Positions 7,214 through 28,914 of a DNA stretch of 64,000 nucleotides are shown piece by piece. Source of the stretch: Brevibacillus brevis (GTDB taxonomy: Bacteria; Bacillota; Bacilli; Brevibacillales; Brevibacillaceae). Position 1 is the first letter of the stretch. Every line of letters starts with the position of its first letter. The stretch covers positions 3,051,501-3,115,500 of the forward strand of contig NZ_CP134050.1 of the NCBI RefSeq assembly GCF_031583145.1, read 5' to 3'. Position numbers and translations under genes: made by a program. Below the pieces are notes generated by a model, which saw only the letters and a list, made by a program, of their open reading frames with translations, was not told the DNA's origin and made no database searches.

Positions 7214-7433
7214 CTGGGTGGACTCCTTTGCAGTTGAGATGGAAAACTCGCAGGAAAACGACCGAGCGACACTTTTATTCGTTTACTCGATGTATTTCTA
7301 TGTGTGCACCCAATGATTGGAATGGATGTTTGCCCACCGTCTTCCATGCAATAAAGCCCATTTCGCACCGCGTCCCCGGCGGCATCACTGATATCATGAT
7401 CGAGCGCCTCTCCCCTTGCACCAGGCCGGCCGC

Positions 7434-9515: not shown

Positions 9516-9638
9516 GCTGGAACCCCCTTTATAGAGAATCACACACAGAAAGAAAGGGAATTATGTGCGCATCCACATTGTACGAAATGTTTTGAATATA
9601 TACAATCCTTGTAAAAGCAAGGAAAGGTGGCTGACGAG

Positions 9639-11090
9639 ATGACAAAAACCTATCAGAACTACATCAATGGGGAATGGGTAGCGAGCCATACCGGAAAGGT
9701 GTTTCCCAGCACGAATCCGGCCAATATCCATGAGGTTTTGGGCTATTTTCAGCAGTCGGACGGAGAGGATGCCCGTGCGGCGATCGAGTCTGCGGCCAAG
9801 GCGTTTCCTCAATGGTCAAAGACGGCTGCACCGGTTCGCGGAGAGTTTTTGTTTGCCCTGATCCGCTTGCTGGAGCAACGAAAAGAGGAGTTGGCCGAGA
9901 TCATCACGCGCGAGGTGGGGAAAACCTTGCGGGAAGCGCGTGGAGAAGTGAACAAAACCATCGCGTCCATGAAACAGCTGACGGGCGAAGCTACACGACT
10001 GACGGGGCAAACGGTGCCATCCTTCGATGAGCGCGTGGTCGGCTATACCGTTCGGGAACCGATTGGCGTGTTTGCCATCATCGCACCATGGAATTTCCCA
10101 TTGGGGATCGGGCTATGGAAAATCGTACCGGCCATCATCGCCGGCAATACCGTCGTCTTTAAACCGGCGAGCAATACGTCGCTGATCAGTGTCAAGCTGA
10201 TAGAGCTCCTGATTGAAAGCGGAGTACCCGCCGGCGTCGTCAATATGGTGACCGGTCCGGGTGCCGTCATCGGCGAAGAGCTTGCGAACAATCCAACGAT
10301 CAAAGGAATCTCGTTTACCGGCTCCTCCGAAGTGGGTCTGGCACTGGGCAAGGCTGTCGGCTCTCGCGGCGGCAAGATTCAGGCGGAGATGGGGGGCAAA
10401 AACCCGGCGATCATCCTTGCCGATGCGGATATCGATTTGGCGGTCGATTGCATCGTGACAAGCGGATTCTTCGACAACGGCCAACGCTGCACGGGTACCA
10501 GCCGCGTACTGGTTGTTCCGGAAGTGGCTGAACAAGTAAAGGCCAAACTGATCGAGCGTGCGAAAAGCATGAAAGTTGGCGACGGCTTTGACCCCGAAAG
10601 CCATAACGGCCCGGTCGTGGACGAGCATCAGTTGAACCTGTATTTGCATTACGTCCAAAAGGGAATCGAAGAAGGGGCGACTCTTGCCTGCGGAGGACAG
10701 CGTCTCACGGATGGAAAGCGGGGGAACGGCTATTTTGTCGCACCGACCGTGTTTACCGGGGTGACACAAGAAATGACGATTGCAAACGAGGAGATTTTCG
10801 GGCCAGTCATCGCCGTCATCGACGTGGAATCCTTTGAGCATGCCATGGAAATCGCAAATCAAGTGGAATTTGGCTTGTCCTCCACTATTTTCACCAACGA
10901 TTTGCGCAAAGCGTTCGAATTCGTCAAGGGGATTCAATCGGGTGTGACTCATGTGAATATGCCATCGACGCACTTCGAATCGCAGTATCCGTTTGGCGGC
11001 AAAAAAATCTCCGGTTTGGGTCCGAGAGAACAGGGTGAATCTGCGCTCGACTTTTACGTGGAGACGAAAACGGTCTACATTCGGCCATAA
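9639..11090 (+). CDS. NAD(P)-dependent aldehyde dehydrogenase (semialdehyde dehydrogenase type)
   Basis: A 483-residue ALDH superfamily enzyme. It shows APWNFPL (around 145), FTGSSEVG in the cofactor site (around 230), the general-base Glu in EMGGKNP, and the catalytic Cys in NGQRCTGTSR. These features are closest to alpha-ketoglutarate-semialdehyde and succinate-semialdehyde dehydrogenases. ATG 9639 is preferred to GTG 9627 because AAAGGTGG fits its spacing. Paired with the hydroxyacid dehydrogenase 34 bases downstream and a diacid-type regulator upstream, it likely oxidises a semialdehyde formed during catabolism of a sugar acid or branched hydroxyacid. Confidence 0.9.
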   Translation: MTKTYQNYINGEWVASHTGKVFPSTNPANIHEVLGYFQQSDGEDARAAIESAAKAFPQWSKTAAPVRGEFLFALIRLLEQRKEELAEIITREVGKTLREARGEVNKTIASMKQLTGEATRLTGQTVPSFDERVVGYTVREPIGVFAIIAPWNFPLGIGLWKIVPAIIAGNTVVFKPASNTSLISVKLIELLIESGVPAGVVNMVTGPGAVIGEELANNPTIKGISFTGSSEVGLALGKAVGSRGGKIQAEMGGKNPAIILADADIDLAVDCIVTSGFFDNGQRCTGTSRVLVVPEVAEQVKAKLIERAKSMKVGDGFDPESHNGPVVDEHQLNLYLHYVQKGIEEGATLACGGQRLTDGKRGNGYFVAPTVFTGVTQEMTIANEEIFGPVIAVIDVESFEHAMEIANQVEFGLSSTIFTNDLRKAFEFVKGIQSGVTHVNMPSTHFESQYPFGGKKISGLGPREQGESALDFYVETKTVYIRP

Positions 11091-11124
11091 GGCTTATCCT
11101 GATGGGGAGAAAGGAGGATTCGAG

Positions 11125-12018
11125 ATGAATGCGGTAGGTGTGATTGGAATCGGAGCGATGGGCAAGGGAATGATCGGCAGTTTGCTGCAAAAAGGCTACC
11201 GGGTCTTTGCATACGATCCGATTCCCGCTGCCCAGCAATGGGCCAAGGAAAGAGGAGCTGAGGTAGCCGATTCGCCGGCAGCGGTGGGAAGAATGGCAGG
11301 AGTCGTCATTACTTCGCTGCCAGGTCCTGCGGTCGTGGAGCAGGTGCTTCTGGGGGCGGACGGACTGTATGCGACTCTAGCATCGGGCAGCTACGTACTG
11401 GATGCCAGCACGATTGATCCGGCGACAGCAAGGCGTATGTATCAGTCAGGCCGGGAAAAAGGAATCGCCTATTTTGATTGTCCGGTGAGCGGTGGTCCGG
11501 CGGGCGCTGCCGCAGGGACCTTAACCATCATGGTCGGCGGGGACGAATCCAAGCTGCCCGAAATCATTCCGTACTTGCAGGGAATTGGCAAAGAAATCTT
11601 TTACCTGGGGGAATCCGGTTCTGGCCAGGTCGCAAAGCTTTGCCATAATTCCGTGGTGGCGGTGATCACCGCTGCGCTGGGAGAAGCGCTCACCGTGGGT
11701 GCAAAGGCGGGGGTAGATCCGCATAAATTGGCGGCGGTCATGGACAAAGGCTCCGCCCATAACCGTGTCCTTTCCATTTTCGGCCCGAACATCTTGTACG
11801 GAACTTATGAAAAGACGATTTTTTCTCTGGATCATATGCACAAGGACCTTACGCTTTACACCAAGGCGGCTCAAGAACAGCAGGTTCCGGTCTTGGTCGG
11901 GGGCACGGTTTCCCAGATGTACGAAGCGGCAAAAGCGCAAGGGAAGGGCGCGTGGGACTCTTCAGCCGTATGTTCGGTTACGGAAGAACTGGCCCACGCC
12001 ACCATATCCAAATCCTGA
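11125..12018 (+). CDS. Beta-hydroxyacid dehydrogenase (3-hydroxyisobutyrate / tartronate-semialdehyde reductase family)
   Basis: A 297-residue enzyme with the Rossmann motif GIGAMGKGM at residue 8, the DASTIDP segment, the substrate-binding PVSGGPAGA motif (~120) and the catalytic Lys in GQVAKLCHN. These define the GarR/MmsB family of NAD(P)-dependent 2-hydroxyacid or 3-hydroxyacid dehydrogenases. ATG 11125 follows AAAGGAGG at ideal spacing; longer in-frame reading into the preceding gene is spurious. Co-transcribed with the aldehyde dehydrogenase and followed by a strong terminator. Whether it makes or consumes a semialdehyde cannot be decided. Confidence 0.88.
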   Translation: MNAVGVIGIGAMGKGMIGSLLQKGYRVFAYDPIPAAQQWAKERGAEVADSPAAVGRMAGVVITSLPGPAVVEQVLLGADGLYATLASGSYVLDASTIDPATARRMYQSGREKGIAYFDCPVSGGPAGAAAGTLTIMVGGDESKLPEIIPYLQGIGKEIFYLGESGSGQVAKLCHNSVVAVITAALGEALTVGAKAGVDPHKLAAVMDKGSAHNRVLSIFGPNILYGTYEKTIFSLDHMHKDLTLYTKAAQEQQVPVLVGGTVSQMYEAAKAQGKGAWDSSAVCSVTEELAHATISKS

Positions 12019-12073
12019 CTCCATTTGCTCCTCCTCCCGCAATTGCTCCCTACTCAAATGGCCACGTCCATAT

Positions 12074-12099
12074 CCGCGCTGAGTGCAGCGCGGTTTTTT
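12074..12099 (+). terminator. Rho-independent terminator of the dehydrogenase operon
   Basis: Perfect stem CCGCGCT / AGCGCGG with a 6-nt loop and TTTTTT (12094-12099). Confidence 0.9.
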
Positions 12100-12195
12100 C
12101 ATGCAGAAAAGCATATTGCGATACCCCAAATGGGCAGAGAGAGGGGGCAAGACGTTTCTGCCTTTTTCACCTGAAAATCGATGGGGGAGTAGCGT

Positions 12196-13083
12196 TTACC
12201 GGTTGACAGCTCCGTTCTCCGCGAAATATTCGACGACGAACTCGCAAAAATTCCGGGCAGCCTGGGACAGATACCGTTTTTTATGCCAGATCATTTGAAA
12301 ATGACGCTGGCAAACCGGCTCCGTGATCGGAAGCAAGACGAGCTTCGGGTCTGCCTCTTTGCTGACACAGCCAAATAGAGCTACTCCGAGGCCGGCCCGC
12401 ACCAATTTTAAGATCGAGGCAGGATCGTCTACCCGGCAGGCAAAATTCGGGGTGAAGCCTGCCCGCTGAAAAAACGGATCGTACAGCTTCTGGGTGGGGA
12501 AGTCCTCCTTGTATCCGATAAACGGGTCTTCGGCAACGTCAGCCAAGCGAATGCTGCTCTGCCGGGCGAAACGATGGCTGCTGGGGACAGCCACATAAAT
12601 TTCTTCCTTCAACACGGTCTTCACGTAGACATCCGGATGCTTAAGCGGAAGGTGGCTAAAGCAAACGTCGACTTCTCCCGACTCCATGAGGCTGGCCATT
12701 TCCTCCGAGTTGGCCTGCGTGATCTGAAAGTGGACGGAGGGATGAAGCGCCAAAAACTTGCCGAGGGGTTCCGCCAAAATATCCAGAGTCGAGACCGCCA
12801 GATGAACACTGCCTTGCTCCAGTCCGGCGAGCTCGGAAACCACTCTTTGCCCTTCCTCCAGCAGATTGAGGGCTTTTTCCACCCGCTCCAGGTACGCCTT
12901 TCCAAACGTATTGAGCCGAATTCTCCCGCGTTCCCGGTCAAAGAGGGGGACACCGATATCTTCCTCCAGACGCGCAATGGTCTTGCTAAGGGCCGGCTGA
13001 GCAATCCGCAGCTCTTGAGCGGCTTTTGTCATGTGCTGCCACTTCGCAACCGTCCGGAAATAATGCAGCTGCAACAATTCCAT
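12196..13083 (-). CDS. LysR-family transcriptional regulator
   Basis: A 295-residue regulator with the LysR helix-turn-helix in residues 1-60 (MTKAAQELRIAQPALSKTI) and a periplasmic-binding-like effector domain from ~90. The ATG at 13083 has GGAGG 4 bases upstream. It is divergent from the MFS exporter at 13234; the 150-bp gap is AT-rich with TATA-containing palindromic stretches, so it probably controls that exporter. The effector is unknown. Confidence 0.9.
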   Translation of the reverse strand: MELLQLHYFRTVAKWQHMTKAAQELRIAQPALSKTIARLEEDIGVPLFDRERGRIRLNTFGKAYLERVEKALNLLEEGQRVVSELAGLEQGSVHLAVSTLDILAEPLGKFLALHPSVHFQITQANSEEMASLMESGEVDVCFSHLPLKHPDVYVKTVLKEEIYVAVPSSHRFARQSSIRLADVAEDPFIGYKEDFPTQKLYDPFFQRAGFTPNFACRVDDPASILKLVRAGLGVALFGCVSKEADPKLVLLPITEPVCQRHFQMIWHKKRYLSQAARNFCEFVVEYFAENGAVNR

Positions 13084-13233
13084 GGATCCTCCACTCCATA
13101 TACTCAAGTATATAGACTACATATAAGAATATATATTTTCGTTTATTCAGAAAGAATTATAAACTACAACTTGCAAGGTATACAATCACCTTCCCGGGAA
13201 GCAATCTGATGAATTTGTGAGGTGCTTGGACTT

Positions 13234-14625
13234 ATGCAAGACATATCCCAGCCGTATGCTGGCGACAAGCTGGTTCGTATTCTCGCGTTTACGCTGATCA
13301 TCACGGTGATGAGTGCCACGATGTTCAATATCGTGCTGCCGGAAATCAGAAACGATTTTCATTTGACGTTTAGCCAGGTCAGCTGGGTGACATCCGCTTA
13401 TTTGCTGATCTATGCGGTAGGAACTGTGATTTACGGGAAGCTGGCCGACACCTGGAAGCTCAAAAATTTGCTTACCTTCGGGCTCACGTTGTTTGCACTT
13501 GGCTCCTTGATTGGTTTTTTCTCTCACCAATTCGGAACTGTGCTCATCGGCCGTATCGTGCAAGCGATTGGAGCGGCAGTCGTCCCTGCCACGTCGACAC
13601 TGATTCCGATCCGCTACTATCCTCCGGAAAAACGGGGGAAAGCCCTGGGCATCGCGATGACGGGAATGGCGATCGGGAGTGCATTGGGTCCCGTGGTTTC
13701 CGCCGTTCTCGTCAGTCTGCTCGACTGGAGATGGCTGTTTTGCATCCCGGTCTTGACGCTCGCCGCCATCCCATTTTATCGGAAATATTTGGATGATGCG
13801 ATTCCGACGTCAGCCAAAATGGACTGGCTGGGCGGGTGCCTGATTGCCGCAACGGTTGCCTTGCTGCTTCTGTCTATCACCAATCAGAGTATGCTGCTGG
13901 CACTTGGTTTCGCCCTTTCATTCGGCTTGTTCCAGATCCGCATTCGCACCGCGGCAGAGCCGTTCATCCGGGCAGAGCTGTTTCGCAGCAAGCGCTTTTC
14001 GCTCTGTCTCGCGATTGCCTTTCTGATGACGGGCACAGGCTACTCCCTTCAGTTTGTAAGCCCCCATCTGCTTGCGAATGTCCATCATTTGGCTCCGGGG
14101 CTGATCGGCTTTATCATGGTCCCGGCAGCCATCGTGACGGCGTTCTTGGGTAAAAAAGGCGGGAGTCTGGCCGATCAGAAGGGGAATTCGTATTTGTTTT
14201 ACGTGGCTTCCGCTCTGCTTTTGGCGTGCTTTGTCCTCTTGTCTTCTTTTGCAGGGACGTCTCCCGTCTCCATCGCGGTCTTCCTCATCCTGGGCAATGT
14301 CGGTGTATCGTTCATGATGATCGCATTGTCGAACGCGATCTCGCAGACACTTCCAAAAGAACATGCCGGAGTCGGGATGGGACTTATGTCGATGCTGAAT
14401 TTCATTGCCGGAGCGCTCTCGGCGACGCTGTACAGCAAGGCGATAGACAGCGGTTCGGATCAGAGCTGGAATCTTTTCGAGCATCATCCGGAGGGGTACG
14501 TCTACAGCAATATCTACTTGCTGCTTGCGATTCTGATCCTCTTCCTGGCCTGCGTCTATTACGTCCAGTTCAATCGTGTGAAACCAAAAAAGAGAGTGTT
14601 GGGAAAAGGAGGGGGAGCATCATAG
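13234..14625 (+). CDS. MFS transporter, DHA2 family (Tet(L)/QacA-like 14-TM antiporter)
   Basis: A 463-residue membrane protein with about 14 hydrophobic helices. The loop GKLADTWKLKNLLTFG and the TM4-5 region GRIVQAIGAAVVPA then RGKALGI and GPVVSAVL follow Tet(L)/Tet(K)-type proton antiporters, and the C-terminal GVGMGLMSMLNF segment resembles their GAGMSLLNF motif. ATG 13234 is chosen over GTG 13222 for its spacing to GTGAGGTG. Likely exports a drug or exchanges monovalent cations for protons, under the divergent LysR regulator. Confidence 0.85.
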   Translation: MQDISQPYAGDKLVRILAFTLIITVMSATMFNIVLPEIRNDFHLTFSQVSWVTSAYLLIYAVGTVIYGKLADTWKLKNLLTFGLTLFALGSLIGFFSHQFGTVLIGRIVQAIGAAVVPATSTLIPIRYYPPEKRGKALGIAMTGMAIGSALGPVVSAVLVSLLDWRWLFCIPVLTLAAIPFYRKYLDDAIPTSAKMDWLGGCLIAATVALLLLSITNQSMLLALGFALSFGLFQIRIRTAAEPFIRAELFRSKRFSLCLAIAFLMTGTGYSLQFVSPHLLANVHHLAPGLIGFIMVPAAIVTAFLGKKGGSLADQKGNSYLFYVASALLLACFVLLSSFAGTSPVSIAVFLILGNVGVSFMMIALSNAISQTLPKEHAGVGMGLMSMLNFIAGALSATLYSKAIDSGSDQSWNLFEHHPEGYVYSNIYLLLAILILFLACVYYVQFNRVKPKKRVLGKGGGAS

Positions 14626-14777: not shown

Positions 14778-15081
14778 CAACAAGAGCAATCAAACGCGAC
14801 GAACGGGAACAGTAAGTGGTCGGAGCTGTCAAGAGAGCTGCGGGTCGGTGCGACGCAGTCAGTGAAGCCAGTGAAGCTCGCCCGGGAGCGGCAGGACTGA
14901 AGACGATGTAGCGCTGCATCGAAACAGTAGGTTCTGACGGTTAACCCCCGTGATCAGGTGGCGCGGATCAACCCGATTCCGTGCATGAGGTGGACGTAGG
15001 CGTACAGCCGAAGTCAACGAGAGTGGTACCGCGATAGACCAGGTCTGTCGTCTCTTCGATGGAGACGGCAGGCCTTTTTTC
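14778..15081 (+). ncRNA. T-box leader 1 (leucine, CUC specifier)
   Basis: A complete T-box riboswitch. Stem I has the AGTA motif (near 14811), the apical AGAGAG...GGTGCGA elements (14832-14853) and a specifier loop reading GAAGCTCG, with CTC at 14877-14879. The T-box sequence GAGAGTGGTACCGCG is at 15019-15033; its TGGT pairs with an ACCA tRNA end and an A discriminator, as in tRNA-Leu. A terminator hairpin (15040-15081, stem around GGTCTGTCGTCTC) ends in TTTTTT. Uncharged tRNA should favour the antiterminator and allow transcription to continue into T-box 2 and leuA. Confidence 0.93.
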
Positions 15082-15099
15082 ATGAAAAATTACATACAG

Positions 15100-15365
15100 C
15101 AAACGCGACGAACGGGAGCTAGTAAAGCGAATTTCACGTCCAGAGAGCTGCGGGGTGGTGCGACGCAGTCGGGAAATGCTTGAATCTCACCCGGGAGCGG
15201 CCAGGTTGAACGCCAGCACGGCTGGCAGCTAGACCTGGACGGAGTACCCCACGTCATCGGGGCAACGAGGTGGATTCCTTTCAGAAAAGGGATCAATGAG
15301 AGTGGTACCGCGGCAGCTGACAGGCCTGTCGTCTCTTGCAAAGGAGACGGCGGGCTTTTTGTATT
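15100..15365 (+). ncRNA. T-box leader 2 (leucine, CUC specifier), in tandem
   Basis: A second complete T-box begins 19 bases after the first terminator. It has AGTA (15120-15123), AGAGAG...GGTGCGA (15142-15163), a specifier loop GAATCTCA with CTC at 15186-15188, the T-box GAGAGTGGTACCGCG (15298-15312), and a terminator (15324-15361) with TTTTT. Both leaders show the pattern GAA-N-CTC-purine, which supports CUC rather than an out-of-register codon. leuA starts 43 bases further on. Confidence 0.93.
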
Positions 15366-15407
15366 CCCCCAAAAAACAAACGACCATCCCTAGGAGGAGA
15401 GATTACC

Positions 15408-16970
15408 ATGACAAAACGAATCCATATTTTCGATACGACACTGCGAGACGGCGAACAGGCGCCAGGAGCTTCCCTGCATCCGGAACAAAAGATCGTGATC
15501 GCGAAACAGCTGGCACAGCTCGGAGTCGATGTCATTGAACCCGGCTTCCCGATCTCCAGTCCCGGTGACTTCATGGCTGTGCAGCGCATTTCCCAGGAAG
15601 TGCACGGCGTAGAAATTTGCGGGTTTGCCCGTGCCGTGAAGGAAGACATCGACGCTGCCGTGCGTGCGACCCAGGATGCGGAGCGACGCAGATTGCACAT
15701 GTTCCTGTCGTCCTCGAACATCCATCTCGATTTTCAGCTGCGCAAGTCACGGGAGCAGGTCATCCAGATCGCTCGTGCCATGATCGCCTATGGCAAACAG
15801 TTCGTGGACCGGATCGAATTTTCTCCGATGGATGCGACGCGTACAGGAGATGAATTCCTGTTTGAAATGATCGAGGCGGCCATCGAAGAAGGGGCGACGA
15901 TCATCAACATCCCGGATACGGTTGGATACGCGTTGCCGGAAGAGTACGGTGCGATGTTCACCCGGGTCATGAAAAACGTCCGGGGCAGCGGCAACGTGGA
16001 GTTCAGCGCGCACTGCCACAACGACCTCGGCCTGGCCGTGGCCAACAGTCTCGCGGCGATTCGGGCAGGTGTGACCCAGGTGGAAGTGACGGTAAACGGA
16101 GTGGGAGAGCGCGCGGGGAACTGCTCTCTGGAGGAGCTGGTCATGGCGATCGAGACGCGCAAGGAAGCGCTGGATGCCGAGACAGGGATCCGGCCGGAGC
16201 ACATCTACACGACTTCGCAAAAGGTGAGCCGCGCCATGAGCTTCCCGATTGCCTTCAACAAGCCGATTGTAGGCCGAAACGCCTTCCAGCATGAAGCGGG
16301 TATCCACCAGGATGGATTGTTGAAAGAACGCAGCACATACGAGATTATGGATCCGGAAAAGCTGGGCGTACCGCGCAACATGATCATTCTCGGCAAGCAC
16401 TCCGGGCGCCATGCCATCAAGCACCGGGTCAGCGAGTTTGGCGTGCAGCTGACCGATGAACAGATGGAGAGCTTGTACATTCGGTTCAAAGAGCTGGCCG
16501 ACAAGCAAAAGGTCGTACAGGATCATCAGCTGCTCGAGCTGGTCGGACATACCGTGAATGCCGTATTGGAGCCGTTTACGCTCGTGAATGCGCAGGTGCT
16601 GACGGGTACTTCCGGCAGCCGGATGGCTTCCTGCACGATTACCAACAATGCGACGGGAGAAGAGACGGTGTTCTCCGGTACGGGGGAAGGTCCGGTGGAA
16701 GCGCTGGTCGCCGGCATCAAGCAGGCGCTGCCGATCGAGGTGGAATTCACTGACATGGAGCTCTATTCCCTGTCCTCCGGTGAGCATGCGACAGGAGAAG
16801 CCATCGTGACGGTCAGTGCAAACGGCAGTCTTTTCAAAGGTGTCTCCGAGCATCGCGATGTCCTGATGGCGGTGGCCCAGGCGTTTATGGCTGCGAGCAA
16901 TCAGGCGGTGAGAGATTTCGAAGCGACTGCCGGCCAAGAACAGGATCGGGTAGAAGCCTTTTTCTCCTGA
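15408..16970 (+). CDS. leuA: 2-isopropylmalate synthase
   Basis: This 520-residue enzyme condenses 2-oxoisovalerate with acetyl-CoA, the first committed step of leucine synthesis. The HMGL-like catalytic domain begins IFDTTLRDGEQAPGA (residues ~6-20), with metal ligands in SAHCHNDLG, the glycine-rich NGVGERAGNCSLEE, and the LeuA regulatory dimer domain from ~390 (TGTSGSRMASCT and GEGPVEA). Length is standard for bacterial LeuA. The ATG at 15408 is preceded by TAGGAGGAGA. It stands alone here rather than in an ilv-leu operon, under two leucine T-boxes, and is followed by a strong terminator. Leucine feedback inhibition is expected from the C-terminal domain. Confidence 0.96.
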   Translation: MTKRIHIFDTTLRDGEQAPGASLHPEQKIVIAKQLAQLGVDVIEPGFPISSPGDFMAVQRISQEVHGVEICGFARAVKEDIDAAVRATQDAERRRLHMFLSSSNIHLDFQLRKSREQVIQIARAMIAYGKQFVDRIEFSPMDATRTGDEFLFEMIEAAIEEGATIINIPDTVGYALPEEYGAMFTRVMKNVRGSGNVEFSAHCHNDLGLAVANSLAAIRAGVTQVEVTVNGVGERAGNCSLEELVMAIETRKEALDAETGIRPEHIYTTSQKVSRAMSFPIAFNKPIVGRNAFQHEAGIHQDGLLKERSTYEIMDPEKLGVPRNMIILGKHSGRHAIKHRVSEFGVQLTDEQMESLYIRFKELADKQKVVQDHQLLELVGHTVNAVLEPFTLVNAQVLTGTSGSRMASCTITNNATGEETVFSGTGEGPVEALVAGIKQALPIEVEFTDMELYSLSSGEHATGEAIVTVSANGSLFKGVSEHRDVLMAVAQAFMAASNQAVRDFEATAGQEQDRVEAFFS

Positions 16971-17806: not shown

Positions 17807-18430
17807 GTGAAGCAACAAGCTAGGACTCCGGAAAGAAAAACGATTCAGAGCGGACTCGTCTTGAGCAGCGAGCCTTTGGGTTGGGAGCATGTTTCTTTAA
17901 CGAAATGGCAAGGAGTTGAGCCTCAGGAAGCGTTTGAACCGGCTCTATCCCAGCATCTGATCGTCATTCACACCACTCCCCCCATTATCCGGAAATGTCG
18001 AATTGAATCACCAGCTCAGGATCAACGACCCGAGGCTGCTTCATTTAAGTCGATGGCTGCTGGACGACCTGCACAGCAACGGAGCAGGGGGGCAAGCTGT
18101 ACATAGACTCACTTGCGAATCGGTTGGCCATCCATATTTTGCAAAATTACACATCGAACGCCAAAAGGCTGAAGGATTCCCCCAGTAAATTATCGGACCA
18201 ACAAGTGGCCCGTGCAATTGAATATGTGCATGCCAACCTGGAGCGGGATAATTCGTTAGAGGAGCTGACGACCGTAGTGAATGTCAGTCAGTCGCATCTG
18301 GGAAGAATGTTTAAACAATCCACAGGGCTTAGTCCGCATCAATACTTGATCCATTTGAAGGTGGAAAAAGCGAAAACCATCATGAAACAAGGTTCGTGTA
18401 CAATGGGGGAAATTGCCGCGGCGAGCGATT
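17807..18430 (+). pseudogene. AraC-family regulator, frameshifted and truncated
   Basis: GTG 17807 follows GGAGGGGCGGAC and begins an AraC-type effector domain (LSSEPLGWEHVSL, then SQHLIVIHTTPP). The homologous reading then continues in a different frame (LRINDPRLLHLSRWLL, 18012-18060) and a third (KLYIDSLANRLAIHILQNY, from ~18090), reaching an AraC helix-turn-helix (NSLEELTTVVNVSQSHLGRMF). At about 18430, in the second HTH, the sequence abruptly becomes the tail of a gltS gene. At least two frameshifts, an internal loss of roughly a hundred codons and a missing C-terminus mean no functional regulator is made. Confidence 0.8.
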
Positions 18431-18658
18431 GTCCTGTTCCGCCTGCTCGGCAAAAATTACGACGCTGCCGTCATGGTCGCGGGATTTACCGGGCATGGAC
18501 TCGGTGCTACGCCAAATGCGATGGCCAATATGGCTGCCGTGACCGAGCGTTTTGGACCTTCCCGCAAAGCGTATCTCGTCGTTCCCATTGTAGGAGCCTT
18601 CCTGATCGACGTGTTCGCCATGCCGATCATTATAACCACAATCAATCTGTTTAAGTAG
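18431..18658 (+). pseudogene. 3' fragment of a GltS sodium/glutamate symporter gene
   Basis: In the frame ending at TAG 18658, about 72 codons read FRLLGKNYDAAVMVAG, then GLGATPNAMANMAAVTERFG and a final hydrophobic helix, which is the conserved C-terminus of GltS. The rest of the transporter is absent and the fragment is joined directly to the araC relic, so a deletion has fused two former neighbours. Confidence 0.8.
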
Positions 18659-21173: not shown

Positions 21174-23990
21174 ATGAATAAAGAGAGGATATTCGAGCAG
21201 TTGCAGCACCTGACGATCCACCATGACTTTGATAAGCAAGCGGGAAGCTACGAGGTGTTTACAAGCAACCACCTGGCCCAGGCATTGGATAAAAAACGAA
21301 ATTTCGTAAGCCAGCTCTTAAACGAAATGGTCCGCAGCGGAAAGGTCATAAAAGTCAATACAAGACCCGTCTACTTTTTTTGCAAAGAAGCGCTGGAGAC
21401 GAAAACGGGAAGGCTGATGGATCAAAGCGAATTCGCCAGTTTGACCGAGTTTCATTCTTATTTGAACGACACGGCCAAGACGGTGGTCGACCCCTTTTCC
21501 AAAATGATCGGGTACGCCAGCACCATCAGTCACCAGATTGAGCAATGCAAAGTAGCGGTGAATTACCCGCACGGTCTGCCCGTCCTGATTCACGGTGCGA
21601 CGGGAGTCGGAAAAAGCCTGATGGCCCAGCATATGTACGAATACGCAGTCATGAAGGAAGTGATCGAGAAAAAAGCGCCTCTTGTCGTCGTCAACTGCGC
21701 GGAATTTGCCAACAACCCGGAACTGCTTACCGCCAACCTTTTCGGCTATGTAAAAGGGGCTTATACCGGCGCGGATGAAAGCAAGACAGGCTTTATCGAG
21801 GAAGCGGACGGGGGCTACCTGTTCCTGGACGAGATTCACCGTCTCTCCCCGGAAGGACAGGAAAAGCTGTTTTTATTTATGGACAAAGGCATGTTCAGAC
21901 GGTTGGGAGAAACACAGAAGTGGCGCAAGTCGAAAGTGAGATTTGTCTTCGCCACAACGGAGAATCCCCAGGACGTATTGATTCAGACGTTTTTGCGGAG
22001 AATTCCCATCGTCGTCACGATTCCATGTCTGGAAGAGCGGACGATCCGCGATAAAACGGAGCTGATCTCGCATTTTTTTACGGAAGAAGCCCGAACGATC
22101 GACCACGATCTGATGATTGACAAGCAAGTGATGAACATGCTGATCCATACCAGACTGGACGGAAATATCGGGGAGCTCCGCAACATCATCAAATACACGT
22201 GTGCGAATGCGTATTACAAAAAGGGGAATGAGTCCGCGGTGACAACCGCCGATTTGCGGATCAGTGTGAGTCACCTTCCCGATGAGTTCATCCGCAAAAC
22301 GGAAAGCCTTGGCGATCACATGTGGGGGAAGGATGCTCTTTTTCACGATGGAAAGATCCGCAGGGATTCGCGGAAAAATGATTTCGGCCTGGCATTGGAC
22401 AAAAGCAAGGTGTTGAAAGATCTGGTTATGGATGTGATTGGCGTCTACGACAATTTCAGAAAAGACATATTGGAGCTGGACGAACTGATTGCGGATGTTC
22501 ACAAGGTCATTGATTTTTCCTTTGATTCCATGGTGGCTGAGATCAACGAGGACTACGCCCGTTACTCGGTCAGATTCTCCTACATGAAAAAAATGGTTGA
22601 TAGCATCATGGAAATTATCAAAAACAATTACGGGCTCTCGTTTTACTCCAATACATCGAATGTGCTTTCGAATTTCCTTTACTACCGATCCAGAAATGGC
22701 TACGGCACAAGCAAGGAGTTTTCCAAAAAAATCAGGGAATTCCTGCACGTGATTCAGAAGGCGTACCCGAAAGAGTATGAATTGGCCGTGAAATTCATGG
22801 AGCTGATCAGCTCCCATGCAGGTGTCGAAACATCGGACGAAGATGTCCTGATCACCACCCTCTATATCAAAGGAACCAACAAGCACCTCGACATCAACCG
22901 AATCAGAGCCATCATTATTTCCCATGGCCATTCTACCGCAAGCAGTATCGCGAATGTAGCCAATCGCCTGTTGGGTCAGTATGTTTTCGAGGCGATTGAC
23001 ATGCCCTATCAGACGACACTCGAACAAATCACCCAGCAGTTGATCGATCATATTCGGGGTCTCAACACCAAAAAGGGAATGATTATTCTGGTGGACATGG
23101 GTGCCCTGGAGGATATCCATCTGAATCTGGAAGGGATCGTGGAGGGAACGATCGGTATGATGAACAACATCACGACATTCCTCGCATTGGATACCGGTAC
23201 GAAAATCCTGCAGGGAATGGAAGTAGAACAAATCGTAGAACAGGTCGCCACCGAATGTCAGCCGAAATATAAATTGATCCGGAACAGTCACACCAGAAAA
23301 AAAGCCATCCTGACGACTTGCGTGACCGGGATTGGAACCGCTACGAAAATCAAAGACTTGATGTCCCAGAGCTTTGACGATTGCCATACAGAGCTGGAGA
23401 TCATCCCGTACGACTTCTTGCGCTTAAAGAACAACAGCAAGAGCGACCCTGTCTTTCAAAACTTTCACGTGATAGCGGTGATCGGAACGGCCAATCCCCA
23501 AATCGAGCATATTCCTTTTGTCGCCTTGGAAGATATCATGATGGAAAAAAGCAATGATGCCTTCTTCGATATTTTGCGGGGGGTGGTCAAGGAAGAGGAG
23601 ATTATCCGAATCAACCGAAATATGGTGAAGCTATTCTCCTTGCAAAGCGTGATCAATCATGTCACGATCTTACACCCGGACAAATTGATGAACCACATCG
23701 AACTGGTCACGGATCACATGCAGGCGGAAATGGGCATCGAATTTTCCAACAGTGTCAAAATCAGTTTGTTCGTTCACATCAGCTGCCTGGTGGAACGGTT
23801 GGTAAAGAATGAACCCATCAGTTCCTACGAAGACCTGGACTTGTTCGAAAAGTGTCACTATTCTTTTATCCAAACCGTAAGACGCAGCTTTAGTGTCATA
23901 GAGAACGTATATAGTGTAAGGATTCCAGTCGCGGAAATCGGTTTTATTTACGATATCATCAATCGACAAACCAAAGATCTCACGGATTAG
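21174..23990 (+). CDS. LevR-type sigma-54-dependent PTS-regulated activator
   Basis: A 938-residue multidomain activator. Domains in order: N-terminal winged helix (~1-80); AAA+ sigma-54-interaction domain with Walker A GATGVGKS (~140), the sigma-54-contact loop GAYTGAD (~195; canonical GAFTGA) and Walker B YLFLDEIH (~215); PRD1 (~430-540); an EIIA-mannose-like domain (IISHGHSTASS, ~580); an EIIB-like P-loop (TTCVTGIGTATK, ~710); and PRD2 (~815-938). Phosphorylation by HPr and EIIB should tune its activity. The ATG 21174 follows GGAGGAAAAC. It sits directly upstream of a -24/-12 promoter and the mannose-family PTS operon, its evident target. Confidence 0.92.
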   Translation: MNKERIFEQLQHLTIHHDFDKQAGSYEVFTSNHLAQALDKKRNFVSQLLNEMVRSGKVIKVNTRPVYFFCKEALETKTGRLMDQSEFASLTEFHSYLNDTAKTVVDPFSKMIGYASTISHQIEQCKVAVNYPHGLPVLIHGATGVGKSLMAQHMYEYAVMKEVIEKKAPLVVVNCAEFANNPELLTANLFGYVKGAYTGADESKTGFIEEADGGYLFLDEIHRLSPEGQEKLFLFMDKGMFRRLGETQKWRKSKVRFVFATTENPQDVLIQTFLRRIPIVVTIPCLEERTIRDKTELISHFFTEEARTIDHDLMIDKQVMNMLIHTRLDGNIGELRNIIKYTCANAYYKKGNESAVTTADLRISVSHLPDEFIRKTESLGDHMWGKDALFHDGKIRRDSRKNDFGLALDKSKVLKDLVMDVIGVYDNFRKDILELDELIADVHKVIDFSFDSMVAEINEDYARYSVRFSYMKKMVDSIMEIIKNNYGLSFYSNTSNVLSNFLYYRSRNGYGTSKEFSKKIREFLHVIQKAYPKEYELAVKFMELISSHAGVETSDEDVLITTLYIKGTNKHLDINRIRAIIISHGHSTASSIANVANRLLGQYVFEAIDMPYQTTLEQITQQLIDHIRGLNTKKGMIILVDMGALEDIHLNLEGIVEGTIGMMNNITTFLALDTGTKILQGMEVEQIVEQVATECQPKYKLIRNSHTRKKAILTTCVTGIGTATKIKDLMSQSFDDCHTELEIIPYDFLRLKNNSKSDPVFQNFHVIAVIGTANPQIEHIPFVALEDIMMEKSNDAFFDILRGVVKEEEIIRINRNMVKLFSLQSVINHVTILHPDKLMNHIELVTDHMQAEMGIEFSNSVKISLFVHISCLVERLVKNEPISSYEDLDLFEKCHYSFIQTVRRSFSVIENVYSVRIPVAEIGFIYDIINRQTKDLTD

Positions 23991-23992
23991 AC

Positions 23993-24032
23993 GCTATGCC
24001 GGGCGGTGTTACACTGCTTGGCATAGCTTTTG
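23993..24032 (+). terminator. Terminator hairpin of the activator gene, overlapping the operon promoter
   Basis: Perfect 8-bp inverted repeat GCTATGCC / GGCATAGC (23993-24027), with an inner GTGT/ACAC pairing, followed by TTTT. The 3' arm contains the -24 element of the sigma-54 promoter. Confidence 0.65.
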
Positions 24033-24034
24033 CA
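24019..24034 (+). promoter_or_regulatory. Sigma-54 (-24/-12) promoter of the PTS operon
   Basis: TGGCATAGCTTTTGCA matches the consensus TGGCAYR-N4-TTGCW, with the invariant GG and GC at correct spacing. It lies 34 bases before the EIIA start, immediately after a sigma-54 activator gene. Confidence 0.87.
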
Positions 24035-24067
24035 TTATTTAGCGAGACAGAATGGGGAGGTGAATCT

Positions 24068-24466
24068 ATGCGTCAATACATCATAGCATCCCACGGCAGT
24101 TTCTCCGAGGGGATCATGGATTCGGTGGGGATGATTATGGGTCACGTGCAGAATGTGACTTGCCTCACAGTCGTACCAGGCGACAGTCAGGAAACGGTTG
24201 TCGGAAAAATCGAAGAACTCCTGCAATCAAAGGAAGAGAACAGCGAGGTGGTTGTACTTACGGATGTCTTTGGAGGGAGTGTGACGAATCATTTCTTTCC
24301 GTACATGCAAACTCACAACATCCACGTGATTACAGGCGTGAACCTTCCCTTGGCTTTGGAGATTCTCGTTTCGGATGAGAATGACGAATTGCAATCCGTA
24401 ATATTGGAAGCGATTGAGAGAGGCAGGGAAGGAATGAAGTATTTGAATCAAATTGCCGGAAGTTAA
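24068..24466 (+). CDS. PTS mannose-family EIIA component
   Basis: A 132-residue EIIA of the mannose/fructose/sorbose family; the phospho-accepting His is His9 in IIASHGSFSEG. It passes phosphate from HPr to the EIIB protein encoded next. The ATG 24068 has GGGGAGGTG upstream, and longer in-frame starts overlap the promoter. The domain IYH-type partner EIIB is separate here, as in sorbose and levan systems. First gene of the sigma-54-controlled operon. Confidence 0.93.
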   Translation: MRQYIIASHGSFSEGIMDSVGMIMGHVQNVTCLTVVPGDSQETVVGKIEELLQSKEENSEVVVLTDVFGGSVTNHFFPYMQTHNIHVITGVNLPLALEILVSDENDELQSVILEAIERGREGMKYLNQIAGS

Positions 24467-24493
24467 ACCGGAAGAGAAAAAGGAGGGGTCTTG

Positions 24494-24967
24494 ATGATCA
24501 AGTTGCTTCGAATCGATGACCGGCTGATTCACGGACAAGTCGCTTTCGCTTGGACCAAATATTTAGGGATTAATTGCATGTTGGTTGCCAATGATCTCGT
24601 CGTCAATGACGAATTGAAGAAAATGATGCTGAATTTAGCCAAGCCGCCTGGTGTCAAACTCATTCTGCTCTCGGTTGCGGATGCCGTTTCCTTCTTGAAC
24701 GGTGAGGAGTCGGAAAAGTACACGACTTTCGTTCTGGTGGACAAAGCAGCGGATGCTCTGTCGCTGTGCCAGGGAACCAAACGGATCCCTTCCGTGAATG
24801 TGGGCGGGATGCGCATGTCGGAAGGAAAAAGGATGATATCCCCGGCTGTGGCTGTCGATGATGCGGATATCCAAGCGTTTGAGCAAATGGCTTCCATGGG
24901 GGTAGAAGTAGAAGTCAGGCAGGTTCCAACCGAAAAAAAGAAAACCATCACAGAGCTCATCGGATAA
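24494..24967 (+). CDS. PTS mannose-family EIIB component
   Basis: A 157-residue EIIB with the phosphorylated His13 in IDDRLIHGQV, the signature of the mannose-class EIIB. It phosphorylates incoming sugar at the EIIC/EIID channel. ATG 24494 lies 7 bases after GGAGG. By analogy with levan-type systems it may also phosphorylate a PRD of the upstream activator to prevent expression without substrate. Confidence 0.93.
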   Translation: MIKLLRIDDRLIHGQVAFAWTKYLGINCMLVANDLVVNDELKKMMLNLAKPPGVKLILLSVADAVSFLNGEESEKYTTFVLVDKAADALSLCQGTKRIPSVNVGGMRMSEGKRMISPAVAVDDADIQAFEQMASMGVEVEVRQVPTEKKKTITELIG

Positions 24968-24979
24968 GGGGGCAAATGT

Positions 24980-25726
24980 ATGTGGCTTGAGGCAATCCTC
25001 GTCGGTATCATCGCGGGATTTGGCATTCTCGACTCCCGAATTCTTGGGGACAACATGTTCGGGCGTCCCATTATCATCGGGCCTCTCGTCGGTTTGGTCC
25101 TTGGAGATTTTCAGACGGGTCTTGTAGTCGGAGGTACGTTGGAGCTTATTTTTATCGGTGCGGTACAGGTCGGCGCCTCTAGTACAGGAGATGTAGTGAC
25201 GGCCTCTGCATTGGGAACCGCCTTTGCCATTCTGTCCCATCAAGGGGCCGCCGTTGCTCTCACATTGGCTGTCCCTGTCGCCTTGCTCGCGGATCGGGTG
25301 GGAGACCTCGCCAGGATCGTCAATACCCCGTTGATTCACAAAGCAGATCGATATGCCAGCGAAGGAAATATAGCTGGTGTGGAACGGATGCACAAAATCG
25401 GCTTCGTCGTTTTCTTCCTGAACGGGTTTTTGCCCACATTTACCATGCTGATGCTCGGGTCTCCATTCATGAATGCATTGATCCAATCATTGCCGCAATG
25501 GCTTCTGGATGGCTTGCTGTCCGGCGCGCTGCTGCTGCCGTCCATCGGCTTCGCCTTGCTTTTGCAAATGATGATTAGCATGAAGCTGGTTCCGTTTTTC
25601 ATCCTGGGCTTCCTCTTAGCCGCGTATCTCAAATTGGACATTCTGGGTGTCGCATTAATCGGTCTGGTCATAGCCCTGGTTCTCTCTCAATACGATCGCG
25701 CTGACGAAGAAAGGATGACAGTATGA
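24980..25726 (+). CDS. PTS mannose-family EIIC permease
   Basis: A 248-residue membrane protein with the EIIC-man family features GPLVGLVLGDFQTGLVVGG (~35-53) and ELIFIGAVQVGAS, and about seven hydrophobic helices. It forms the translocation channel together with EIID. Its stop codon overlaps the EIID start (ATGA), so translation is coupled. Confidence 0.93.
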   Translation: MWLEAILVGIIAGFGILDSRILGDNMFGRPIIIGPLVGLVLGDFQTGLVVGGTLELIFIGAVQVGASSTGDVVTASALGTAFAILSHQGAAVALTLAVPVALLADRVGDLARIVNTPLIHKADRYASEGNIAGVERMHKIGFVVFFLNGFLPTFTMLMLGSPFMNALIQSLPQWLLDGLLSGALLLPSIGFALLLQMMISMKLVPFFILGFLLAAYLKLDILGVALIGLVIALVLSQYDRADEERMTV

Positions 25727-26541
25727 GCCATGACGTAGAGAAGTCGATCGGCAAGAAAGAGCTGTGGAAAGTCTTCTTTCGTTCGCTAACCTTGCAGGGG
25801 TCCTGGAACTTCGAGCGAATGCAGGCGTTGGGATTTGCGTATTCCATGATCCCTGTGCTCAAAAAGCTGTACCGGACAAAAGAGGAAGTAGCCGCAGCGT
25901 TGAAGAGGCATCTCGAGTTTTTCAATACGGCTCCATGGATGGGAAGCTTTATCATGGGAGTCACGACAGCGATGGAGGAGCAAAACGCGAGGGAGAAGGA
26001 GTTCAACCCAGACTCCATCAACGCAGTGAAGGCGGGATTGATGGGGCCGCTGGCGGGGATCGGGGATACGTTTTTCTGGGGGACTTTCCGGGTCATTGCG
26101 GCCGCGATCGGAGCATCGCTGACGTCCAAGGGCAGTGCCGTCGGATTGTTGTTCTATATCTTTTTGTTTAATATTCCGCATTACTTTGTCAGGATCGCAG
26201 GAATCATGAAGGGCTATCAGGCAGGCATCAAATTCCTGAGCAATGCTTCGCAAAGCGGACTCACGCAGAAAATCACCAAGGGCGCATCCATCGTCGGGTT
26301 GATGGCCGTGGGCGCGATGACTGCCACGATGGTGGAATTCCACACACCGCTTGCATTTGAGTTCACCGGCAACAAAATCGAATTGCAGGGCGTACTGGAT
26401 AAAATCCTGCCGTCCCTGCTGCCGCTGCTCCTTACGCTGATTGTGTTCTATCTGCTGAACAAAAAACAGGTGAAAGTGATTTACCTCTTGCTGGGTCTGA
26501 TCACGTTCGGCGTAATCGGGAAAGTCGTTGGCTTCCTCTAA
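25723..26541 (+). CDS. PTS mannose-family EIID permease
   Basis: A 272-residue EIID: FRSLTLQGSWNFERMQ near the N-terminus and the conserved GLMGPLAGIGDTFFWGTFR (~105-123) are diagnostic, with membrane helices concentrated in the C-terminal half. It pairs with EIIC. It overlaps EIIC by four bases. Confidence 0.94.
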   Translation: MSHDVEKSIGKKELWKVFFRSLTLQGSWNFERMQALGFAYSMIPVLKKLYRTKEEVAAALKRHLEFFNTAPWMGSFIMGVTTAMEEQNAREKEFNPDSINAVKAGLMGPLAGIGDTFFWGTFRVIAAAIGASLTSKGSAVGLLFYIFLFNIPHYFVRIAGIMKGYQAGIKFLSNASQSGLTQKITKGASIVGLMAVGAMTATMVEFHTPLAFEFTGNKIELQGVLDKILPSLLPLLLTLIVFYLLNKKQVKVIYLLLGLITFGVIGKVVGFL

Positions 26542-26569
26542 TCAAACTTCGCACAAGGGAGAGTTGAAC

Positions 26570-27649
26570 ATGGCGATCGAGCTGTATGATTACATTGTAG
26601 AGCAACCGCTTGTACTCAAACGGATGTTGGAACATTCCAAACAGATGACAAAAGAGTTCACCGATATTTTTGCAAGCCAAACCGTATCCCGGATCATTTT
26701 GGCCGGTTCCGGATCCTCTTATAATGCAGCTTGCTCCGCGAAGTATTTTATGCAAAAGCTGCTGCAAATCCAAGTAGACGTCCAGACCGCCCATACATTC
26801 ACTTCGTATGAGAACATTCTGGACAAGGAAACTCTCGTGGTAGGGATCTCCCAAAGCGGAGAGAGTACCGCTGCGGTAAACAGCATCCGGAAGGCGAATG
26901 AGCAGGGATTGACCAGTTTGGGTGTCACAGCGGAAGAGGGCAGCTACATCACCGAGCATGCCTCCTGCAAAATGATTGTCCCGTCCGGGGAAGAAGAGGC
27001 GGGGGCGACGACGAAGGGGTATACGGCTACCGTATTGGCTTTCTATTTGGCGGCCTTGGAGACAGCCTACCGACTGAATCGCGTGGATGAACAGGAATAT
27101 CAGTCGTACCGCGACGGCATTGCAAAGACCATCGATTCCATTCCCGTGGCGATTCGAAAAGCGGACGAATGGTACGAAAAACATCGCAGCGAGCTCTTGA
27201 AGGCCAAAACTCTCATCGTTTCCGGCTACGGAAGCAATTATGGCACTGCACTGGAAGCAGGACTCAAATTTTTGGAGACATCGAGGTTCCCGGTCAGTGT
27301 GTATGAGTTGGAAGAATTCATGCACGGGCCGTACAATGCCATCGATGAGGACAGCTATATTTTCTTCCTCGTCCCGGAAGGAACCGGCAAGGAAAGGGCG
27401 CTGCGGCTGAATGAGTTTTTCTGCCGCAAAACCGAGCATTCCTTTATGGTCCTCAAGGACGACGGGAACCCCGATGACAAAAACATACGCATTCCTTTCC
27501 ATGAACACGCCGACTTCACTCCGCTCGAATACATCGTGCCTCTCCAGGTGCTGTTTTTCCGCCTGGCAAAGGATAAGGGCGTAGAGATGAGAACGGTACG
27601 CTATCCTGACTTCCATGGATACATGAACAGCAAGCGAAGATTTGAATAA
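26570..27649 (+). CDS. SIS-domain sugar-phosphate isomerase/deglycase
   Basis: A 359-residue protein with two SIS domains, like the isomerase half of GlmS. Domain 1 has ILAGSGSSYNAA (~45) and VVGISQSGESTAAV (~95); domain 2 has IVSGYGSNYGTALEAGLKFLE (residues ~222-242). There is no glutaminase domain, so it resembles AgaS, FrlB and GfrF, which deaminate or deglycate 6-phosphorylated amino- or glycated sugars. ATG 26570 follows AAGGGAGAG. Immediately downstream of the permease genes, it should act on the phosphorylated import product. The exact substrate is not readable from sequence. Confidence 0.87.
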   Translation: MAIELYDYIVEQPLVLKRMLEHSKQMTKEFTDIFASQTVSRIILAGSGSSYNAACSAKYFMQKLLQIQVDVQTAHTFTSYENILDKETLVVGISQSGESTAAVNSIRKANEQGLTSLGVTAEEGSYITEHASCKMIVPSGEEEAGATTKGYTATVLAFYLAALETAYRLNRVDEQEYQSYRDGIAKTIDSIPVAIRKADEWYEKHRSELLKAKTLIVSGYGSNYGTALEAGLKFLETSRFPVSVYELEEFMHGPYNAIDEDSYIFFLVPEGTGKERALRLNEFFCRKTEHSFMVLKDDGNPDDKNIRIPFHEHADFTPLEYIVPLQVLFFRLAKDKGVEMRTVRYPDFHGYMNSKRRFE

Positions 27650-27682
27650 CAGATCGAAAACCAGAGGATAGGAGTTTGAATG

Positions 27683-27943
27683 ATGATCGAGACAAAAGTC
27701 AAAGTGGTAAACGCCCTAGGATTGCATGCGCGACCGGCAGCTCAATTTGTAGAAAAAGCCAAAACCTATCGTTCTTCCATCACCATTCAAAAAGATGCCA
27801 CAAAAGTAAACGGAAAGAGCATTATTGGGATTATGGGGCTTGGGATTGAACAAGGAACGACCATTACTATCCTTGCTGCGGGGGAAGATGAACGATCAGC
27901 GTCCATGGAATTGAAGGAATTGATCGAATCGTTGGAGGACTGA
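27683..27943 (+). CDS. HPr-family phosphocarrier protein
   Basis: An 86-residue HPr with both regulatory sites: His15 in GLHARPAAQF (EI-dependent phosphorylation) and Ser46 in NGKSIIGIMGLG (HPr kinase site). With the second of two adjacent ATG codons as start, the numbering fits exactly. It is embedded in the sugar operon rather than a ptsHI locus, so it is probably a pathway-dedicated HPr paralogue that feeds EIIA and may contribute to catabolite control. Confidence 0.92.
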   Translation: MIETKVKVVNALGLHARPAAQFVEKAKTYRSSITIQKDATKVNGKSIIGIMGLGIEQGTTITILAAGEDERSASMELKELIESLED

Positions 27944-27957
27944 CGGAACGTTTCCGG

Positions 27958-27993
27958 GCAGCATAAAGCAGTGCTTAGAATGCTTATGCTGCT
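27958..27993 (+). other. Intercistronic hairpin between HPr and NanE genes
   Basis: Perfect arms GCAGCATAA / TTATGCTGC, with AGCA/TGCT inside the loop. It is followed by CTCTCTTG, not a T-run, so it is more likely an RNA-processing or stability element, or a weak attenuator, than a full terminator. Confidence 0.5.
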
Positions 27994-28028
27994 CTCTTGA
28001 ATTATCCGTGACAGGAGGGGAAGCGAAA

Positions 28029-28754
28029 GTGGAACAGCCAGTGATACCGCGAGGGCTTATTGTTTCTTGTCAAGCCGATCCGGGAGACCCTTTTTACGGT
28101 GCTGAAAACATCGCGAGAATGGCTTTGGCTGCCGAAGCGGGAGGAGCGGTCGGACTGCGTATCAATACGGTGGAGAACATTGTGAAGGTAAAGCAAACCG
28201 TTTCCATTCCGATCATCGGGATCCTGAAAAAAAGGTATGGCCACTCGGCCGCCTATATTACGCCAACGCTGAAAGAGGTGGAGGAGGTCATCGAAGCCGG
28301 TGCGGATATCGTGTGCATCGATGGCACCGCCTCGACGAAACCGGACGGAAAAACGACGGAGTCCTTTCTTCACGACATCAAGAAGCGCTTTCGGATACCG
28401 ATCATGACAGATGTCTCCAACGCCCAGGAAGGTGTAACTGCCTGGAGAGCGGGAGCGGATCTGATCGCGACCACGCTGGCAGGCTATGAAGCGTTTTTGA
28501 AAAACCCGGTGTACGATCCGACTGAAAATTTTAAAGAGCCGGATTTTGAAATCATCGCCAGTTTGGCTGAGCAGGTGGACATACCTGTGGTGGCCGAGGG
28601 AAGATTTTGGACGCCCGAGGACGTGGTCAAGGCCATGAATCTGGGGGCCCATGGGGTCGTGGTTGGCTCCGCGATTACCCGGCCGCAATTGATCACCAAA
28701 CGAATGGCGTTGGCCATCGACCGCTTCCTGGAACAATCCGGACGAATGGTCTGA
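28029..28754 (+). CDS. nanE: N-acylmannosamine-6-phosphate 2-epimerase-like protein
   Basis: A 241-residue TIM-barrel protein of the NanE family: RGLIVSCQADPGDPFY at the N-terminus, AGGAVGLRIN (~38), IIGILKKRY, DIVCIDGTA, IMTDVSNAQEG, and VVAEGRFWTPEDV with the phosphate-binding GAHGVVVGSAITRP. NanE interconverts ManNAc-6-P and GlcNAc-6-P. GTG 28029 is chosen because AGGAGGGG lies 9 bases upstream; this gives the usual family length. In this operon, which lacks sialic-acid genes, it may act on a related 2-amino-sugar phosphate. Confidence 0.9.
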   Translation: MEQPVIPRGLIVSCQADPGDPFYGAENIARMALAAEAGGAVGLRINTVENIVKVKQTVSIPIIGILKKRYGHSAAYITPTLKEVEEVIEAGADIVCIDGTASTKPDGKTTESFLHDIKKRFRIPIMTDVSNAQEGVTAWRAGADLIATTLAGYEAFLKNPVYDPTENFKEPDFEIIASLAEQVDIPVVAEGRFWTPEDVVKAMNLGAHGVVVGSAITRPQLITKRMALAIDRFLEQSGRMV

Positions 28755-28871
28755 TCCCATACACCGCCGAAGTCGATTGGCAGGATGTGAAAATCCAGTT
28801 TCATCATGGCAGTGATCGACAACGCACATCAGGCGACATCAACAGAGCGCTGGCCCGCCAAAACAAAACGA

Positions 28872-28898
28872 ACCGCGGGTGACTGACGCCCGCGGTTT
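28872..28898 (-). terminator. Terminator of the AhpD-like gene
   Basis: Perfect stem AACCGCGGG / CCCGCGGTT with a 9-nt loop. On the minus strand it is followed by CGTTTTGTTTTGG. It may also stop the convergent NanE transcript. Confidence 0.75.
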
Positions 28899-28914
28899 GA
28901 TCTGGTTCGACCTG

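Follow-up and report, generated by a model that had tools for sequence, protein, structure and literature searches.

The 64,000-nucleotide stretch of the Brevibacillus brevis genome analysed here (the window; positions 3051501-3115500 of contig 1 in a 6.23 Mb genome) carries, at 21174-28754, an eight-gene cluster encoding a sigma-54 activator, a mannose-family phosphotransferase system (PTS), a two-SIS-domain enzyme, an HPr and a NanE-like epimerase. With about even confidence, this cluster is read as an operon for the catabolism of a 2-amino-2-deoxy-D-mannose-type compound, which would be imported as its 6-phosphate, inverted at C2 by NanE and relieved of its amine by the SIS enzyme. The gene set, a sigma-54 promoter-like site, the enzyme classes, intact catalytic residues and the recurrence of NanE beside SIS genes at other loci carry this reading.

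Gene content and layout of the unit

All eight genes lie on the forward strand and are closely spaced: the LevR/DgaR-type activator (21174-23990), the mannose-family PTS IIA (24068-24466), the sorbose/mannose-family IIB (24494-24967), IIC (24980-25726), IID (25723-26541), the SIS enzyme (26570-27649), HPr (27683-27943) and NanE (28029-28754). The gaps measure 77 nt between activator and IIA, 27 nt between IIA and IIB, 12 nt between IIB and IIC, 28 nt between IID and SIS, 33 nt between SIS and HPr, and 85 nt between HPr and NanE; IIC and IID overlap by 4 nt. Pfam and NCBIfam searches assigned Sigma54_activat, PRD and EIIA-man to the activator, EIIA-man, PTSIIB_sorb, EII-Sor and EIID-AGA to the PTS genes, two SIS stretches and no other Pfam family to the SIS protein, and PTS-HPr and NanE to the last two products. 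GC content ranges from 0.46 to 0.54 within the operon and from 0.46 to 0.58 on either side of it. The sequence supports a single putative sigma-54 unit.

HPr contains both His15 and Ser46 when translation starts at the second ATG, at 27683 (counted by hand). No nagA, nagB, nanA, second SIS gene or Enzyme I gene was detected within the unit. An initial annotation had described one sigma-54 unit of these parts, with a SIS enzyme free of a glutaminase domain, an HPr with both phosphorylatable positions, and neither nagA, nagB, nanA nor a deglycase pair, and all of this is confirmed. Its remark that the SIS, HPr and NanE set matches no nameable pathway also holds, since none was named in the literature searched, and its interpretation is partly supported, as detailed below.

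Class of the SIS enzyme

By tree and alignment, the SIS protein is closer to GfrE and 2aml than to GfrF, FrlB and FraB, and it has Lys at the column of GlmS residue 485. Its E229, K233, E236 and H252 align with E481, K485, E488 and H504 of GlmS. Its predicted class is therefore that of GfrE, Lmo0035 and the GlmS isomerase, on the 2-amino-aldose side, and not the fructosamine class of GfrF, FrlB and FraB. It is ∼30% identical to GfrE and falls in a separate clade from it, in a FastTree phylogeny with 31 open forks and long-branch warnings. One of the four GlmS rows in the alignment (L012) is a mis-cut fragment and was ignored.

Several specific identities were rejected. A deglycase of the FrlB/GfrF/FraB type was set aside because 17/17 GfrF-labelled rows have Cys where this protein has the Lys aligned with GlmS 485; the fructoselysine-6-P deglycase model NF008481 gave 30.6 bits against a required 430. 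The protein shares its fold and the E/K/E/H set with the GlmS isomerase domain, NagB-II and GlmD, but it lacks the glutaminase domain of GlmS and stays under all of their cut-offs: TIGR01135 (GlmS) gave 160 bits against 418, and the SIS-type glucosamine-6-P deaminase models NF046059 and NF041128 gave 73 and 60 bits against 430 and 580. An AgaS-type galactosamine route was likewise discarded (37 bits against 529). The structure 3fkj is, by its title, stm_0572 and belongs to the Salmonella STM0571-0577 PTS, listed as uncharacterised in 2016 in PMC4987338.

The NanE-like epimerase

The epimerase scores 258 bits against the NanE family model NF002231 (cut-off 189) and retains two published signature motifs, IPIIGILKK and VGSAITR. 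By eye, its start is more likely the GTG at 28029, preceded by AGGAGG, than position 28008. It keeps the six active-site residues (Q15, R44, K67, D128, E190 and R218) and both acetamide contacts (Y76 and Y153) given in PMC8482478, and all eight are conserved in 12/12 SIS-linked NanEs. Because they are common to NanEs generally, these residues point to epimerase function and not to a particular substrate.

Other features, among them its pairing with SIS instead of nanA, nanK or nagA, set this protein apart from NanE as the ManNAc-6-P (N-acetylmannosamine-6-P) 2-epimerase. Relative to S. aureus numbering, its offset is +4 at Tyr149 but +10 at Glu180, which places a net insert of six residues after the acetamide-contact Tyr153; the AlphaFold model is of low confidence there (block means 59 and 54). 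The SIS-linked NanEs form two clades on long separate stems (0.95 and 1.02) in a tree of 43 rows. Its comparison set, taken from the 30 loci obtained for the top matches in the phylum together with L120 and L121, favours canonical NanE. The source genome also encodes a second NanE, in a canonical RpiR-NanE-ROK-binding protein-two ABC permeases arrangement (contig 1, 2952271-2957846).

Distribution of the cassette and pairing of NanE with SIS

Brevibacillus fluminis carries counterparts of all eight genes in an unchanged order, with 56-80% protein identity (67% for NanE), followed by a private Enzyme I gene. This recurrence puts the cluster beyond chance. At E 1e-35, the 38 other genomes sampled from the order yielded a single SIS relative, that of B. 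fluminis (67% identity), and the 25 other genomes of the genus yielded none; the weaker matches in the genus have 25-29% identity, lie in open frames of 600-odd residues and look like GlmS. When the phylum was sampled evenly, 7/397 other genomes had relatives, at 31-37% identity.

The closest relative after B. fluminis lies in Paenibacillus sp. cl123 (L043), in the order activator-IIB-IIA-IIC-IID-SIS (53%)-HPr-Enzyme I-rpoN-asparaginase. The genes 3' of SIS in this locus (9117-13581) are HPr, Enzyme I, rpoN and a type I asparaginase, and by coordinates this rpoN is the only one detected in that genome. The asparaginase hints at an asparagine adduct but was rejected as proof of one, as it occurs at a single locus. 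HPr and rpoN also stand 3' of SIS in Lederbergia (L046) and in a Bacillota metagenome-assembled genome (L061); Lederbergia has a second rpoN, and no other was detected in the latter genome.

The neighbourhood survey that the initial annotation had proposed was run and shows that the SIS+NanE pair is not a one-off. A SIS profile retrieved 121 relatives, of which the best 80, representing 78 loci, were kept; neighbouring genes were sought by tblastn (E 1e-4), in stretches many of which end at contig ends. NanE was present within the fetched stretch at 11/78 loci, which divide into three clades by their SIS and two divergent clades by their NanE. The 11 comprise B. fluminis, a Herbinix locus (L047) and nine loci with mannose-family PTS parts (L050, L051, L054, L064, L068, L069, L070, L074 and L076). 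The Herbinix locus consists of an MFS-like gene (below cut-off), SIS, NanE and ROK. NagA, NagB and GfrF were detected at none of the 11, and at 7, 3 and 13 of the other loci, respectively.

Related SIS-IIABCD-NanE-SIS loci in Neobacillus, Erysipelotrichaceae, Collinsella and others share the mannose-family PTS, NanE and SIS with the window. They differ in mostly having two SIS genes, in a GntR/UTRA regulator at the two tested (L050 and L076), and in that no activator or HPr was detected. Between NanE and SIS of the Neobacillus-type locus L050 lies a gene without an above-cut-off family match (7280-7930); weakly related genes occur in L068, L070 and L074. Two loci reached from activator relatives (L233 and L235; two genomes, one family, one of them Tepidanaerobacteraceae) encode a single-domain SIS_2 protein together with activator, PTS and NanE, in a single stretch at 5632-14334 of L235 and 7399-14499 of L233. 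L235 has an extra gene with a weak ceramidase match, and the L233 activator contains in-frame stops.

Proposed pathway and its alternatives

In the proposed pathway, the PTS would import a 2-amino-mannose-type compound as its 6-phosphate and the NanE-like epimerase would invert C2 to give the gluco form. The SIS enzyme would then isomerise C1-C2 and free the amine, either as ammonia or as an intact molecule, for example an amino acid, yielding fructose-6-P for glycolysis. We infer direction, order, product and regulation, the order from enzyme class: import and phosphorylation, epimerisation and amine release must follow one another in this sequence, because NanE needs a stereocentre at C2 and fructose-6-P has none there. 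The amino-sugar 6-phosphate route suggested by the initial annotation is thus retained, whereas deamination ahead of C2 epimerisation, if that was meant, is chemically impossible. Its fructoselysine-type substrates are unlikely because the SIS protein carries the 2-amino-aldose signature of GfrE and GlmS. The N-substituent is most likely an alkyl amine, as in the manno epimers that accompany glucose-type Heyns adducts (mannoselysine-like compounds), with free mannosamine next. This preference is weak; it is drawn from the lack of a deacetylase in the unit, the inclusion of GfrE in the SIS class and the canonical ManNAc-type locus already present in the genome.

Several observations weigh against this pathway. 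Taken by itself, the lack of overlap between NanE loci and those with NagA or GfrF is not significant (chance of zero overlap 0.33 and 0.12, respectively). L047 and L070 are on contigs below 6 kb, L050 and L051 come from one genome, and the nine PTS-linked NanE loci besides B. fluminis represent one NanE clade. NanE is missing from the Paenibacillus locus, whose SIS protein ranks next to that of B. fluminis in similarity. A nagA match occurs near SIS genes of the GfrE class at 7/78 loci; ammonia-releasing deaminases are thus probable members of this class. Tyr153 is shared with 31/31 other NanEs, and the acetamide contacts fit plain ManNAc-6-P equally well. Finally, NagA and NagB are encoded in the source genome far from the unit and could act in trans.

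The last three points also favour an operon for ManNAc or another N-acyl-mannosamine, in which the PTS would deliver ManNAc-6-P, NanE would form GlcNAc-6-P (N-acetylglucosamine-6-P), NagA would deacetylate it in trans and the SIS protein would be a glucosamine-6-P deaminase. E. coli ManXYZ takes up ManNAc, and the catalytic residues of NanE are intact. The genome already has the RpiR-NanE-ROK-ABC locus together with NagA and NagB, however, and neither nagA nor nagB was detected at the 11 SIS+NanE loci, whose NanEs sit on long separate stems. This substrate is considered rather unlikely. Absence of nag and nan genes from the unit, as reported in the initial annotation, is correct but does not by itself exclude ManNAc, because such genes exist elsewhere in the genome.

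Free D-mannosamine, a less probable substrate again, would require only that NanE convert mannosamine-6-P to glucosamine-6-P and that the SIS enzyme release fructose-6-P and ammonia. The catabolic genes of the unit would suffice for this, and the GlmS-type residue set is kept in SIS, but conservation of both acetamide contacts across the SIS-linked NanEs points weakly to an N-substituent.

The gfrABCDEF/GfrR system resembles the unit in its LevR-type activator, its sigma-54 promoter and the order IIA-IIB-IIC-IID followed by a GfrE-class SIS gene; it differs in having GfrF and in lacking the added HPr and NanE. The unit was rejected as a gfr operon, which requires paired GfrE and GfrF, because it has one SIS gene, not of the GfrF type. 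A gfr-like system for glucoselysine or fructoselysine without its second deglycase, with NanE as an unrelated passenger, is highly improbable: PTS class, activator family and the GfrE-class SIS agree with it, as does the Paenibacillus locus with SIS and HPr but no NanE, yet B. fluminis has kept NanE together with SIS, NanE is found again alongside two further clades of SIS, no GfrF homologue was detected in the unit, and the SIS clade is distinct from that of GfrE.

Activator and phosphorelay

The activator has the AAA+, PRD, EIIA-like, EIIB-like, PRD architecture of LevR/DgaR-type regulators, and its His584, His868 and EIIB-like Cys are kept in 11/11 aligned activators. The D-glucosaminate system dgaABCDEF/DgaR shares this architecture and a mannose-family PTS. 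The activator was rejected as a DgaR equivalog, since the NF047795 (DagR) model matches residues 3-929 at 556.5 bits, far below the required 1400; DgaE and DgaF, the partners of DgaR, are also not in the unit. By analogy with LevR-type regulators, phosphorylated HPr may stimulate the activator, and PTS IIB may restrain it when substrate is absent. The source organism has six HPr-like proteins and one Enzyme I. A sigma-54 gene is present elsewhere in its genome, and likewise in 26/26 genomes of the genus searched. The Tyr substitution of GfrR reported in PMC4987338 could not be located on the activator alignment, and nothing was drawn from it.

A predicted sigma-54 promoter inside a terminator-like hairpin

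The promoter-like site TTGGCATAGCTTTTGCA (24018-24034, forward strand), with TTGGCAT and TTGCA separated by AGCTT, precedes the IIA-to-NanE genes and is the sole exact match to TTGGCAYN5TTGCW in the 64 kb. With one mismatch allowed, the window gave 3 matches against a shuffle mean of 1.7, so the call is based on position and on conservation at the same place in B. fluminis (L034/L042) and not on the scan. Its -24/-12 elements form the 3' arm and T-tract of a 16-pair terminator-like hairpin 3' of the activator gene (23993-24027, forward strand; z -5.8 and -6.9, no shuffle as stable). Because the total of terminator-like sites in the window is no higher than in shuffles, the case for this layout depends on a fold test across many junctions.

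In this test, 42 distinct junctions 3' of activator relatives were compared, 31 with a promoter match and 11 with none. At 14/31 promoter-bearing junctions, the window included, upstream sequence pairs with the promoter better than in shuffles (z -3.9 or lower, at most 1/300 as stable); the layout thus recurs at 13/30 others, among them the Klebsiella gfr locus (L162). The fold occurs at 14/18 junctions with at most 55 nt from stop codon to promoter start and at 0/13 with a longer distance, with the z and 55-nt limits chosen after the data were seen and close kin among the rows (window/L042, L234/L235, L214/L215/L219). By a weaker control, counting pairs made with the promoter, 16/31 reach at least 8 pairs, a level attained by at most 3/300 shuffles in only 5/31. 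By eye, the hairpin arms vary across loci yet remain complementary to the varying promoter spacer, and L061, outside the test, shows the same layout. Many of these promoters, whether they have a hairpin or not, also show by eye a TACAC-like word a few bases 5' of TTGGCA. The layout was found in no literature searched, and the words "terminator" and "hairpin" are absent from the accessible text of PMC3162934.

Other features of the window

Two further hairpins were examined, both on the forward strand. That in the HPr-NanE gap (27956-27995; z -2.4, 5/200 shuffles as good) has no T-tract and is not kept in B. fluminis (L042, z -0.25). A strong hairpin between NanE and a convergent CMD gene (28869-28899; z -6.6, 0/200 shuffles) is a possible terminator, although its T-tract is not clear and it is absent from the terminator-scan list. 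Farther upstream, two tandem T-box leaders (14790-15339) precede a LeuA-like gene (15336-16970; HMGL-like and LeuA_dimer). At 18124-18655, the last part of a sodium/glutamate symporter gene (Pfam Glt_symporter 325-368 of 368) shares its DNA with a fragment of an AraC-type regulator read in a different frame; the pair looks like remnants at a deletion joint.

Implications for PTS, SIS and NanE loci

Fructose and amines form Heyns adducts, and this chemistry yields both gluco and manno epimers. Glucoselysine catabolism is already known, and no named route for the mannose-configured partners was found in the literature searched. A possible, if doubtful, extension of the pathway proposed here is that NanE and SIS together, as a module of two enzymes, salvage carbon and nitrogen from the manno epimers among Heyns products (N-alkyl-2-amino-2-deoxymannose, such as mannoselysine). 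The epimerase would be a neofunctionalised NanE that joined SIS genes of different clades, and different importers, on two or more occasions. Some hosts would have related cassettes with a phosphorelay and a sigma factor of their own, as in Paenibacillus sp. cl123, where the cassette holds the only rpoN detected but lacks NanE.

The promoter within a terminator offers a readily testable regulatory feature common to several sigma-54 PTS operons, including a gfr operon. If NanE and SIS are the route for mannose-configured Heyns products, the pair would show how one core of enzymes is combined with PTS or kinase genes, and uncharacterised PTS/SIS/NanE loci of Firmicutes and Collinsella, some of them in gut bacteria, would acquire a function.

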